The translations under genes and the position numbers were made by a program. Below, one piece after another: positions 6,739 through 48,612 of a stretch of 64,000 bases of DNA. How positions within the stretch are numbered: the stretch's first letter is position 1; the number at the start of each line of letters is the position of its first letter. The DNA is from Pseudohongiella sp. (GTDB lineage: Bacteria > Pseudomonadota > Gammaproteobacteria > Pseudomonadales > Pseudohongiellaceae). The notes under the pieces were generated by a model. It saw only the letters and a list, made by a program, of their open reading frames with translations, had not been told where the DNA came from and searched no databases. Where the stretch lies: NCBI GenBank assembly GCA_013204155.1, contig JABMOK010000186.1, positions 16,210-80,209 on the forward strand, read 5' to 3'.

Positions 6739-8280
6739 ATGGGATTGACGGCGTATGTAATTCTTGGGTATCTGGCTTTCTTTGCCGCTGCCGGTTTCTA
6801 TATTAGCAGCAGTAATCGCAGTTCGGCGGACTGGGCTATCGGTGGTGGTTCCCTTGGTGTTTTTATGCTGGCGTTTGGCGTTGCGGGTACACGTATCGGT
6901 GGCGCTGGAACCTACGGTGTGGCCGGCGATGTCATTAGCGGCGGCATCGGGAATCTCTGGTATGGGGTTAATTCCTTCGCGGCACTGGCGCTGGTAGGGA
7001 TGTTTTTCGCAATCCCTTATCGCCGTTTGCAGCTGTCGAGCGTGGGAGAGGTATTCGATCGTCGCTTTGCTTCGCGTCGTTGCCAATCACTCACCAGTCT
7101 CTGTGTGCAAGCTGAATATCTTGTAGTCAATATTATCGAGCCGTATGTTATTGCGACGATTATCACAGGCGTGACCGGTTGGCCATTCGGAGTAGGGATC
7201 ATCATCGGTGCCGTGGTCATTGTAGGGTTTACCGTTACCGGGGGTTTGAAGGGCACGGCGATAACCAATATCGTGCATTGTACGGTTATCATTGTCGGAC
7301 TGGCATTTGTCGGCTTCATTGCGATGCAAAATATAGGCGGCTGGAGTGAGGTCGTCGTTCAAGCCGATGCGATGTTGACCGCTGCGGGTAAAGATATTCC
7401 AAGCTGGTGGAGTTTTACCGGTATCGGCTGGGCTACCATCATCGCGCTGTTTATCTCGGCAACCATTCATACGCCGGCGGCGTCGGTGTATGCCAATTAC
7501 GCCAGCTCGGCGGCCAGACAGGAGTATTTGATCCCGGGTTTTGTTCTGGCGGGGGTCGTAGCGGCTCTTATGCCTCTGGTCGCCGGCTTCATCGGCATAT
7601 TAACCATGGCCAGTTACGGCTCTGAAAGCGGATTGTCCGGCTATTTAAATATCGCGCAATTGGCCATCGATTCGGGTCCTCTACTAGGCGGGATTGCCCT
7701 GGCGGCGGTTTTGGCGGCGGTTATTTCTTCCGGTGCTCCGATTCTGCTGGGCAGCGCAACCATGCTGGTGAATGACTGGATTCCTGCTTCCAAGGATTAT
7801 TCCAGTGACAAGAAACTACGTGCGTATAAAATTGTCACGATCATCTATGGTTCCAGTGCGGCTTTCTGCGCCTGGTATTTTAACTTTGGTTCGGTGCTGC
7901 AATTCCTGTTGTTAGGATTTGCCATGGTAGTGCCACCGGCTATCGCCATTACCTATGTTTTCTACTGGAAAAGGACCACCGAGCAAGCGGCTTTCTGGGG
8001 CATTCTTGCTGGATTTGCTGGCGGCTTGACCATGTGGATTTTAAACAGATCATTCGAGGGGGCCGCGAATGCGGACGTGGGTGGATTCGCGCAGTTCTGG
8101 TACGAAGTATGCCAGTCTCTTGGAGAATGGCGTGACCCGTCATTCCTTACTCTGTTGATTCCGGTAATCGTAATTCCGCTGGTCACCTTATTGGCGCCGG
8201 CCAAGCAGGTTGATCAGCAACAGTCAGACGAGTTTTATCGCAAGTTGGGAAGGATTCAGCGCAATCTTGATTGGGCTTAA
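6739..8280 (+). CDS. Sodium:solute symporter family protein
   Basis: 513 aa, multiple TM segments, ADWAIGGGSLGVFMLAFGVAGTRIGGAGTYGV typical of SSS family. Confidence 0.85.
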   Translation: MGLTAYVILGYLAFFAAAGFYISSSNRSSADWAIGGGSLGVFMLAFGVAGTRIGGAGTYGVAGDVISGGIGNLWYGVNSFAALALVGMFFAIPYRRLQLSSVGEVFDRRFASRRCQSLTSLCVQAEYLVVNIIEPYVIATIITGVTGWPFGVGIIIGAVVIVGFTVTGGLKGTAITNIVHCTVIIVGLAFVGFIAMQNIGGWSEVVVQADAMLTAAGKDIPSWWSFTGIGWATIIALFISATIHTPAASVYANYASSAARQEYLIPGFVLAGVVAALMPLVAGFIGILTMASYGSESGLSGYLNIAQLAIDSGPLLGGIALAAVLAAVISSGAPILLGSATMLVNDWIPASKDYSSDKKLRAYKIVTIIYGSSAAFCAWYFNFGSVLQFLLLGFAMVVPPAIAITYVFYWKRTTEQAAFWGILAGFAGGLTMWILNRSFEGAANADVGGFAQFWYEVCQSLGEWRDPSFLTLLIPVIVIPLVTLLAPAKQVDQQQSDEFYRKLGRIQRNLDWA

Positions 8281-8290
8281 AAATGGGTCG

Positions 8291-8966
8291 GAGTCTGAGA
8301 TATCCCATCTTCTAGATGAAATATTCTCGGCGCCTACCCTCTACCCTGTCTTTCTTGCGAGCACACGCGCGGCGATTTTTTCAGCGCTGCGGAACCACAT
8401 TCCTGCAGAAGGATCTTCGAAGCTGAGAAGATTCATGCTGCTTCTTAGGAAGGAGACTACGGACAGTGGGTTCTCCTCCGGCTCAAGGATTCCTCCAGCG
8501 ACATCTCGGAATCCGAATAGAAATACGCTTTTACTTACCGCCAGAGATTCAGTCTAACGTGTTCTGTCCTCGCTTGACCTGAAAAAATAGCCACGCTAAA
8601 ACGTGCTCTGATTGCAAGTAAGACAGGGTAGAGGGCAGGCGCCTTACTTCAGTAATGGCATCAGGATTGCAGATTCAAGAGCGAGAACTACGCATAGATA
8701 AGAGTGGTTTGTGCTTTTGGGCTTATAGAAATGCAAAGACCAGCCGTGTTCACTTGATTGAGCGGAGTCGAGTCTGTGAGTCCCTTTGCGCACAATCAGG
8801 CCATGTTTCTATTCTTCCATTTAGCCAGATTAAGCGAGGACTGTCCGAGCCTTAGGCGAGTTCCGCAGCGCTGGCTAAATGGAAGAATAGATGGCCGTGC
8901 GCAAAGGGACTCACAGACTTGGCTTCGCGTGCAGGCCACATAAAACCCGAATAAAATCTAACCCGA
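8291..8966. mobile_element. Fold-back repeat element A (composite; shares ends and stems with 48092..48500 in inverse orientation)
   Basis: gagtctgagatatccc...gaaatattctcggcgcct and ...gcaggccacataaaaccc.aataaaatctaac.cgaac match the reverse complement of 48119-48507; hairpin arms 8769-8828 / 8871-8920. Confidence 0.75.
8329..8643. mobile_element. Nested fold-back element with ~30 bp terminal inverted repeats inside element A
   Basis: GGCGCCTACCCTCTACCCTGTCTTTCTTGC (8329-8358) versus reverse complement of 8614-8643 GGCGCCTGCCCTCTACCCTGTCTTACTTGC (28/30); GGCGCC at both ends, single at the corresponding site of element B. Confidence 0.75.
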
Positions 8967-8993
8967 ACTCTAACTCTAACCCCTGTTATTTTT

Positions 8994-10577
8994 CTAGCGT
9001 TGCAACTCGCCGTTGGCCTGGATTAAGAACGGGCCGGGTGTCTCATAACTCTTTTCGAGTAAGCTGCAAAGTTCTTCCGCCGTATCAGCTGTGGCGCCGG
9101 GAACGCCAAAACTCTTCGCCATGTCTACCCAGTTAATCTCAGGATTACCAATATCAAACAGGCTGGCAGCGATTTCGCCTACGTCTGTTACGCCGAGCCG
9201 TGCATATTCAACATTCAGAATATTGTAAGAGCGATTGGCAAAGATAACCGTTGTGATATTGAGTCCTTCCCGGGCCTGAGTCCAGAAGCTCTGGTTGGTA
9301 TAGGCGGCTCCACCATCACCGAGCATAGCCAGCACCGGCCTGTCCGGGCAGGCGAGCGCGGCGCCGGTTGCGCAGGGTCCGCCCTGCCCGATGGCGCCGC
9401 CAGTAAGGCTTAGCCAGGAGTTCGTCGCCGAATTCTGGCAGTAAGGATGAGCGGCATTGCCGCCACCGGAGTCTGTCGCTACGATTACGTTATCGGGCAT
9501 GGTTGCCGCAACCGATTGAATGATGGATCGGGTGTCTAATTCGCCATGGGGTTTTCCAATCTCGACTTTTTCGAATTGGGTAATGGCTGCATTTTCCGCG
9601 CCCAGTCTCTCGGCAAGCCTTGCCAGAGCATCGATGGCGTCTTCTTCGATATAGCTCAGTCTGCTTACCTTGCAGCCTTGCGGAATCAATTGTCCAGGGA
9701 CACCTTGATAGGCAAAGAAGCTGGCCGGGACTTGACCGCCTACGATAATGAGATTTTCGATACCTTCCAGAGTTTTCAAAACTTGCTCAGGAAAATAGGG
9801 CAATCTTTCGACAGCGACGCAGCCCGGACCTCCATCCACTCTGCCGGGAAAAGTGCCAGTCATTAGCCGGCAACCGGTTTTGCTGGCAATCTTGCTGGCG
9901 TAAGCCAGTGCAGCCGGCTCGGTGGCATGATGCTCCAATAACAGCATGTTGTTGCCGCCTTTCTGCAGTAAGGGAGCAATCCTCTGTATTACCTGCTCGT
10001 CGATCTTGCATCGTGTTGGGATGGGATTTGGTGCTGCCGGACCTGAACTGTTACCCCAGGCGGCGTCGGCACCCATAATCAAGGTAGCTATCTGGCCAGT
10101 TGAGCCTGGGCTTTGTCGTAAACTTGCGGTGTAGGCATCGGCGCCATCTTGCGCCAGGGTAGCATTAGTGCTGCTGGATTTAATCCAGCAGGAAAAATTC
10201 CGTGCCAGAGTCTCTATATCTGATGTTAAGGGGGCATCGAAACCGAGGTGAAAATTGGGATGATTGCCAACAATATTAATCATTGGCGAATTCGCACGAC
10301 GAGCGTTGTGTAAATTCGCAATGCCGTTCGCCAGGCCGGGGCCCAGATGAAGCAAGGTGGCAGCCGGCTTGCCAGTCATTCTGGCATAGCCATCGGCAGC
10401 GCCGGTGCAAACACCTTCAAACAGTGCCAGTACTGATTTAATACGTGGAACACTATCGAGCGCTTGTACCAGATGCATTTCCGAAGTGCCAGGATTGGCG
10501 AAGCACAGTTCAACTCCACAATCCGCCAGAGTCTCGATTAATGCCGTTGCACCATTCATGTTATTGTTCTCCTTCAC
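8994..10577 (-). CDS. Thiamine-pyrophosphate-dependent enzyme (acetolactate synthase large subunit/benzoylformate decarboxylase-like)
   Basis: ELCFANPGTSEMHLVQAL...GDGGAAYTNQSFWTQAREGLNITTVIFANRSYNIL TPP-binding motif. Confidence 0.85.
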   Translation of the reverse strand: MKENNNMNGATALIETLADCGVELCFANPGTSEMHLVQALDSVPRIKSVLALFEGVCTGAADGYARMTGKPAATLLHLGPGLANGIANLHNARRANSPMINIVGNHPNFHLGFDAPLTSDIETLARNFSCWIKSSSTNATLAQDGADAYTASLRQSPGSTGQIATLIMGADAAWGNSSGPAAPNPIPTRCKIDEQVIQRIAPLLQKGGNNMLLLEHHATEPAALAYASKIASKTGCRLMTGTFPGRVDGGPGCVAVERLPYFPEQVLKTLEGIENLIIVGGQVPASFFAYQGVPGQLIPQGCKVSRLSYIEEDAIDALARLAERLGAENAAITQFEKVEIGKPHGELDTRSIIQSVAATMPDNVIVATDSGGGNAAHPYCQNSATNSWLSLTGGAIGQGGPCATGAALACPDRPVLAMLGDGGAAYTNQSFWTQAREGLNITTVIFANRSYNILNVEYARLGVTDVGEIAASLFDIGNPEINWVDMAKSFGVPGATADTAEELCSLLEKSYETPGPFLIQANGELQR

Positions 10578-47991: not shown

Positions 47992-48091
47992 TTTGTTGCT
48001 TCGTTTATTGATTTTTATGTACTCGAAGGATTATCGGAAGAGCTCAGAGTATAAACTATTTCTTCTGATCAATAGTTTTTACTCTGACCCC

Positions 48092-48500
48092 GAGGTATCC
48101 CCACAAAATTCCAATGGTTCGCGTTAGATTTTATTAGGGTTTTATGTGGCCTGCACGCGAAGCCGAGTCGGTGAGTCTTTTTGCGCACGGCCATCTATCC
48201 TTCAATTTAACCAGCGCTGCGGAACTACATTCCTCCAGAAAGATCTTCGAAGCTGAGAAGATTCATGTTGCTTTTTAGGAAAGAGACTACGGACAGTTGG
48301 TTCTCCTTCGGCTCAGACAGTCCTCGCTTAATCTGGCTAAATTGAAGGATAGAAACATGGCCTGATTGTGCGCAAAGAGACTCACCGACTCGACTCCACT
48401 CAATTAAGTGAACACGGCTGGTCTTTTTATTTCTATAAGTGTTCCCATTTTCAATCCGCAATTCAGGCGCCGAGAAAATATTATTTCGTGGGGATATCTC
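48092..48500. mobile_element. Fold-back repeat element B with short imperfect terminal inverted repeats
   Basis: Ends gaggtatccccacaaaat (48092-48109) and reverse complement of 48483-48500 gagatatccccacgaaat; internal ~50 bp stem 48164-48214 / 48333-48392 enclosing the loop cassette. Confidence 0.8.
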
Positions 48501-48612
48501 AGACTCGGATCCTTTCTCACTGGCCCTTATCAATGCCTAGTCTATGATGGCCTGATAGATGCCGCTACGAAGTTTCGCATAGTCATCCAGGCCAGTGACC
48601 GGGATAAAGCGG

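Follow-up and report, generated by a model that had tools for sequence, protein, structure and literature searches.

Among described systems, the closest to the element reported here are the REPINs and BIMEs (PMC3116915, PMC3733652), with which it shares an extragenic and multicopy distribution, an arrangement in inverted palindromic doublets and alternating arrays, bulged hairpins and a non-autonomous character. MITEs (PMC3733652), foldback elements and mobile insertion cassettes are likewise non-coding, with an inverted terminal motif, intergenic insertion and possible passenger genes. Integron attC sites and their cassettes also keep structure over sequence, mark one strand by unpaired bases and mobilise single genes, including defence genes. 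We analysed a window of 64,000 nucleotides from Pseudohongiella sp. (contig JABMOK010000186.1; positions count from its first letter), in which an initial annotation had noticed a hairpin present in two copies, A and B. Our preferred reading, to which we give a probability of roughly 0.6, is that these copies belong to a non-autonomous, mobile-looking extragenic element made of two outward-facing long hairpins that end in a common tip, module M, folded from one strand and moved in trans.

Copy A is an intergenic insert extending from about 8284 to about 8990 between two convergent genes, which by inspection we take to be a symporter-like gene on the left (sym, 6739-8280, + strand) and an acetolactate-synthase-like gene on the right (als, 8994-10577, - strand). 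It consists of two hairpins of one class in opposite orientation, H1 (8329-8643) and H2 (8762-8928), whose arms can be aligned with each other when both are read on the same strand; H1-type arms also align with the H2 arms in A1. In H2, on the + strand, the 5' arm (8762-8828) pairs with the 3' arm (8871-8928), and the two enclose an intact module M, AGCGAGGACTGTCCGAGCCTTAGGCGAGTTCCGCAGCG (8833-8870), the same module that is found across the order and across phyla. The pairing of about 50 nt claimed initially (8769-8828 with 8871-8920) thus held, with longer arms. The 5' arms of the H2 class carry two conserved one-sided bulges, AATCA and GTTT, the AATCA columns being 90-100% conserved in 21 hairpins. 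Folded as RNA, 8762-8930 reaches -121.1 kcal/mol (z = -17.2), and none of 200 dinucleotide shuffles was equally good. H1 is read on the - strand: its left side (8329-8384, the 3' arm) forms an inverted repeat with its right side (8579-8643, the 5' arm, with conserved bulges AATCA and TTTTA), and its tip (8385-8576), reversed in orientation relative to that of H2, is enlarged by an insert that splits the remnants of M, CGCTGCGGAAC ... GTCCTCGCTTG. Related inserts occur in copies B, C89 and C169, and analogous ones in another genome of the genus (G055). The left terminal motif of copy A, GGAGTCTGAGATATCCC (8290-8306, +), recurs in inverted form at the opposite end in several other copies and is also found at both ends of copy B and at the ends of copies in other genomes; comparison of copies likewise shows the right end region, CACATAAAACCCGAATAAAATCTAACCCGAAC (8937-8968, +), to be common to others. 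A short CTCTAACCC-like tandem tract adjoins copy A at 8960-8990, and another contig of the assembly ends in a longer one (G000:C110, L077).

Copy B (48156-48397) is the same hairpin as H2 of copy A, as had been claimed, and the changes at matching positions of the two arms are real, both for GTCTGT/ACAGAC versus GTCGGT/ACCGAC and for TTCTTCCATTT/AAATGGAAGAA versus TCCTTCAATTT/AAATTGAAGGA; to this we add one C.A mispair and a tip insert related to that in H1 of copy A. Read on the - strand, it comprises a 5' arm with the AATCA and GTTT bulges (48329-48397), a module M enlarged by the insert (48215-48328) and a 3' arm (48156-48214). A terminal motif lies on the H2 3' side (48084-48110, +) and the opposite one, GAGTCTGAGATATCCCC, at 48482-48506 (-). 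A separate hairpin, GCTCAGAGTATAAACTATT...AATAGTTTTTACTCTGACC (48042-48089), abuts copy B and has a GGGGTCAGAGTA end similar to the GGGGWSAS ends that TIRYT transposases are reported to have. The claim of a single hairpin in two copies has to be widened, as 8291-8966 holds two hairpins and the family numbers about 20 copies in the genome.

Covariation was assessed in 21 related hairpins over 54 base pairs, with a layout of a 22-pair outer helix, the unpaired AATCA, a 6-pair helix, a bulge starting with G, an 18-pair helix and M. The 5' arms of these hairpins diverge by 39% on average, paired cells amount to 98.3%, and the stem cells are Watson-Crick in 96.3% and G.U in 2.2% (non-Watson-Crick total, 3.7%). 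Two-sided changes affect 38 of the 54 base pairs, and the covariation score is 0.629 versus 0.170 after shuffling (0 of 500 shuffles reach the observed value), falling to 0.07-0.14 when the register is slid. The stems covary around fixed unpaired motifs, AATCA and module M being conserved while the stems diverge. Between copies A and C89, differences number 16/271 in the arms versus 91/410 in the rest of the element. The initial inference that the hairpin is maintained is supported, since in more copies the arm changes remain correlated. The same succession of bulge, about 6 pairs and bulge recurs on different stems in Litorivivens and, as judged by eye, in further gammaproteobacterial families, and the betaproteobacterial, Nitrospirota and Bacteroidota units retain M on a different lower structure.

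Module M, GCGAGGACTGTYYGAGC-n-GCGAGTTCCGCAGC, is an almost invariant tip of about 33 bases (33-41 nt); the stems that carry it stay complementary but have quite different sequences in Pseudomonadota, Nitrospirota, Bacteroidota, Campylobacterota and Bdellovibrionota. The strict pattern occurs in at least 119 stretches, for about 4e-6 chance matches expected by arithmetic in the scanned collection. Isolates that carry it include Azoarcus L1K30, Thauera 2A1, Sulfuricella T08, Litorivivens lipolytica and Barnesiella An22; the occurrences in Nitrospirota, Bdellovibrionota and Campylobacterota come from metagenome bins only, one Nitrospira bin having 29 tips. M is conserved across phyla on unrelated stems, and because the stems of one phylum are totally different from those of another, the identity of the tip is not explained by recent transfer alone. 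By inspection only, M might resemble a kink-turn, with GA opposite GA next to a bulge, and its apex is often GNA/GNNA-like, which is compatible with DNA as well as RNA loops. A second hairpin, hp2, lies outward of M in many lineages, and in the Gallionellales it is followed by a GC-rich hairpin with a T-rich tail. We observed hp2 without M in six places on plasmid pILYOP01 of Ilyobacter polytropus (Fusobacteriota; L336 3001-3049), and it is possible that hp2 is even more widely spread than M. One contig of a Thauera bin that has M also contains an apparently unrelated match to Rfam 5_ureB_sRNA (RF02514, 93.5 bits; L192 1934-2219).

The mismatches of the stems are informative as to the strand concerned. 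We considered isolated mismatches, with three matched pairs on each side, in 178 distinct hairpins forming 76 arm clusters. On the strand that reads M, 70 are G.T versus 9 A.C (29 clusters with G.T versus 5 with A.C, p = 4e-5), and M itself has an invariant G.U on this strand. As neutral decay, or a blind correction of double-stranded DNA, predicts about equal counts, the 70:9 asymmetry indicates that the fold of one strand is constrained, in support of the structural selection that the initial annotation had proposed. Covariation combined with one-strand tolerance of G.U meets the criterion of a structured RNA, and we infer, having no transcript data, that the constrained strand is most simply RNA, a folded single DNA strand being also possible. 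G.T is milder than A.C in DNA too, and single-stranded DNA is therefore not excluded. In hp2, mismatches are almost absent (G.T 2 versus A.C 0), too few to inform on strand constraint.

Templated correction from arm to arm, the other process initially proposed, also finds support. Among hairpins less than 22% apart, the two-sided swaps comprise 264 transversions and 204 transitions, with 100 one-sided changes that keep the pair; these counts are pooled over overlapping, non-independent hairpin pairs and are only descriptive. Stepwise compensation through G.U should favour transitions, so that transversions in such number suggest copying of one arm onto the other by template switching, a process that has been shown to give rise to RNA stems and to maintain them (PMC8794818). 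The hp2 stems differ between lineages and between copies, yet are almost perfect. We infer that near-perfect pairing results from selection and template switching together rather than from either alone. Exchange is also apparent at the tip, where the H1 of one element and the H2 of a second share partly palindromic inserts that are oriented alike relative to M (C193 and C218 of G055; H1 of copy A and copy B), and two chimeric hairpins (L092, L279) join an H2-type 5' arm to an H1-type 3' arm. These inserts and chimeras suggest that M acts as a recombination node, by homology or by template switching.

Neither the cross-phylum tip nor the outward paired layout and the gene cassettes had figured in the initial annotation. 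Pairs of M are oriented outward in 25 cases, in the same direction in 5 and inward in 1. In the iron-oxidising Gallionellales, the members of an outward pair are mostly 0.9-2.3 kb apart and have between them single accessory genes that differ from pair to pair, the inverted units of about 330 bp being conserved and the insides unique. In a Ferrigenium bin (L378), the cargo between outward M units is an AAA_21 ATPase with RloB, designated AbiLi/AbiLii by PADLOC, an AbiL-type (RloA/RloB-like) pair of phage-defence type. Further cargo in this order includes Mrr_N, DUF3800 and 8xMP, several genes without a family and one with a weak match to DUF2971, below cut-off. In Azoarcus, a dehydrogenase-like gene lies within one pair, and the units of two pairs are directed inward, hence not every pair is a cassette. 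At one locus (L143 780-2200, G261), three M hairpins alternate with degenerate reverse units between two genes, in a BIME-like manner.

Within the 3.48-Mb assembly there are about 20 full or partial copies or remnants, several of them at contig ends. Related copies were found in some genomes of the same genus (G055, with about 33 tips, G065, G071 and G072), and most members of the genus gave no match; copies A and B thus belong to a dispersed multicopy repeat, carried by certain species of the genus and undetected in others. In a draw of 400 genomes across the order, the strict tip pattern, which undercounts carriers, occurred in 18 of 394 genomes, from six families. The sym-als gene pair stays adjacent across the genus, and copy A occupies a gap that is short in relatives: 719 bp here, whereas among 13 measured relatives, all without M in the gap, 12 have 13-145 bp and the remaining one (G065) has 306 bp. 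One of the M-bearing species (G072) has M elements elsewhere, but a gap of 132 bp without M. In G055 the corresponding als gene also adjoins an M element, reversed relative to copy A, so the gap has probably been hit twice or the element inverted. A terminal motif, CTGAGATATCCCC, is found at both ends of some copies; in a comparison of ends by eye, no consistent target duplication could be defined and the exact ends remain unresolved. Movement of the element is accordingly an inference, drawn from its distribution and from one occupied versus short site, without a defined target duplication and without an enzyme found.

The search for such an enzyme was negative. Clustering of the open reading frames of 109 loci revealed no recurrent protein beside M, only spurious frames of the element and ordinary neighbours, and an adjacent transposase was rejected on this ground. 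Y1_Tnp was not detected in seven M-bearing genomes (G065, G282, G261, G145, G324, G115 and G090) and was present in genomes without matches to the M pattern, such as G011, G027, G054, G029 and G381. In the genus, seven Y1 loci scanned had no adjoining M or CTGAGATATC end, nor had an eighth (L274), scanned with a narrower motif set. A link to RAYT or TIRYT is thus unsupported, its presence not tracking M and the checked Y1 loci being without it. In G055, inverted repeats of ATGGGGTCAGAGTAAATATACAG flank one Y1 transposase, and there is a third copy close by (C77; L399 214-2258). That the family was unrecognised held: Rfam 15 gave no relevant match at the gathering threshold or at E<=1, and we rejected a known Rfam RNA family for want of a covariance-model match. 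The open-licence literature, searched by sequence string and by topic, contained nothing on the element, which is most likely undescribed, within the limits of that literature and of the databases searched. Queries with element A, a Gallionella unit and an f26-family unit, where tried, found no M in plasmids, a phage collection or E. coli; an origin in any of these was rejected, the Ilyobacter plasmid having only hp2.

Under our preferred reading, a fold would be required of the single strand on which M reads GCGAGGACTGT..., in the simplest case as RNA, although no transcript data are at hand; every transcript that leaves the element would then carry this fold at its outward end. M and the bulges may be bound by a host or mobile-element factor, and the stems, needing only to pair, would drift freely in sequence, their near-perfect pairing being kept by selection with the help of replication template switching that copies arm onto arm. 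An unidentified enzyme acting in trans would move or copy the pair, which would at times enclose a gene. The lack of a consistent orientation of neighbouring genes towards M weakens the case for a simple role as 3'-UTR or terminator.

Three other explanations deserve consideration, all of which we regard as unlikely. The element could be an oversized REPIN or BIME, moved as single-stranded DNA by an HUH/Y1 transposase (RAYT, TIRYT or IS200-like) to which folded, bulged hairpins serve as the recognition site, the strand constraint then reflecting recognition of single-stranded DNA. Its inverted doublets, extragenic position, bulged hairpins and mosaic alternating arrays are REP/BIME/REPIN traits (PMC3116915, PMC3733652, PMC8266576), and next to some copies there is a GGGGTCAG motif like those that have been reported at the ends of TIRYTs. 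Against this, Y1_Tnp is undetected in the seven M-bearing genomes and present where the pattern is missing, the eight Y1 loci of the genus adjoin no M, the GTAG/CGTC tag is unconserved and the stems far exceed the 20-40 bp of REPs. The element could also be a 3' element that resembles an intrinsic terminator or stabilises mRNA, with no dedicated mobility and a spread due to chance recombination. This would fit hp2 outward of M, the Gallionellales hairpin with its T-rich tail, and the location of copy A between convergent genes; however, M is codirectional with the neighbouring gene in 23 cases versus antidirectional in 32, without a downstream-codirectional preference, and multicopy bursts in single species, together with outward pairs around unrelated genes, look mobile.

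It might finally be argued that there is no selection and that template switching during replication alone keeps the arms identical, the palindrome perpetuating itself. Transversion swaps as common as transitions, the rarity of G.U intermediates, variable yet almost perfect hp2 stems, and the exchange at M seen in the tip inserts and chimeric hairpins all favour this process. It leaves unexplained, however, the strand asymmetry, the fixed unpaired AATCA, the lower divergence of the arms between A and C89 and the invariance of M across phyla, and it is at most a contributing process.

We therefore retain the reading of a strand-folded, mobile-looking element. A bolder version, in which these are chromosomal mobile cassettes spread across phyla, with hairpin ends recognised as RNA or single-stranded DNA through the near-invariant tip by an unidentified trans-acting enzyme, accessory or anti-phage cargo, and stems evolving by arm-to-arm copying, falls short, in our judgement, of being the probable account. 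The fixed tip, with stems rewritten in step, offers an unusually clear natural case in which to set stepwise compensation against template switching in RNA stems. Should the outward pairs be mobile ends, single accessory or anti-phage genes would have in them a carrier for which no integrase or transposase is visible, and the fixed tip is a direct bait for a protein that recognises M.

Compared with known systems, the pairs of M meet the criterion of inverted extragenic doublets that applies to REPs and REPINs. Other criteria are unmet: the hairpins measure 100-170 nt versus 20-40 bp for REPs, those of type 1 have 46 arm pairs and no GTAG/CGTC tag in the invariant columns (some betaproteobacterial units contain GTAG, where relatives have GCAT), and a cognate RAYT/TIRYT does not track the element. 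Unlike REPINs, it conserves the tip rather than the stem, is identical there across phyla and can enclose genes. Unlike in MITEs and foldback elements, each end is a covarying hairpin with fixed bulges and tip, and no cognate IS was found beside M. The Gallionellales cassettes have two outward units each, whereas integron cassettes have one attC each in a direct array served by an integron integrase, and no fixed tip of 33-41 nt is known from attC. The element is thus not a REP by definition, but behaves like a mobile element of the REPIN/BIME or foldback type under an RNA-like constraint.
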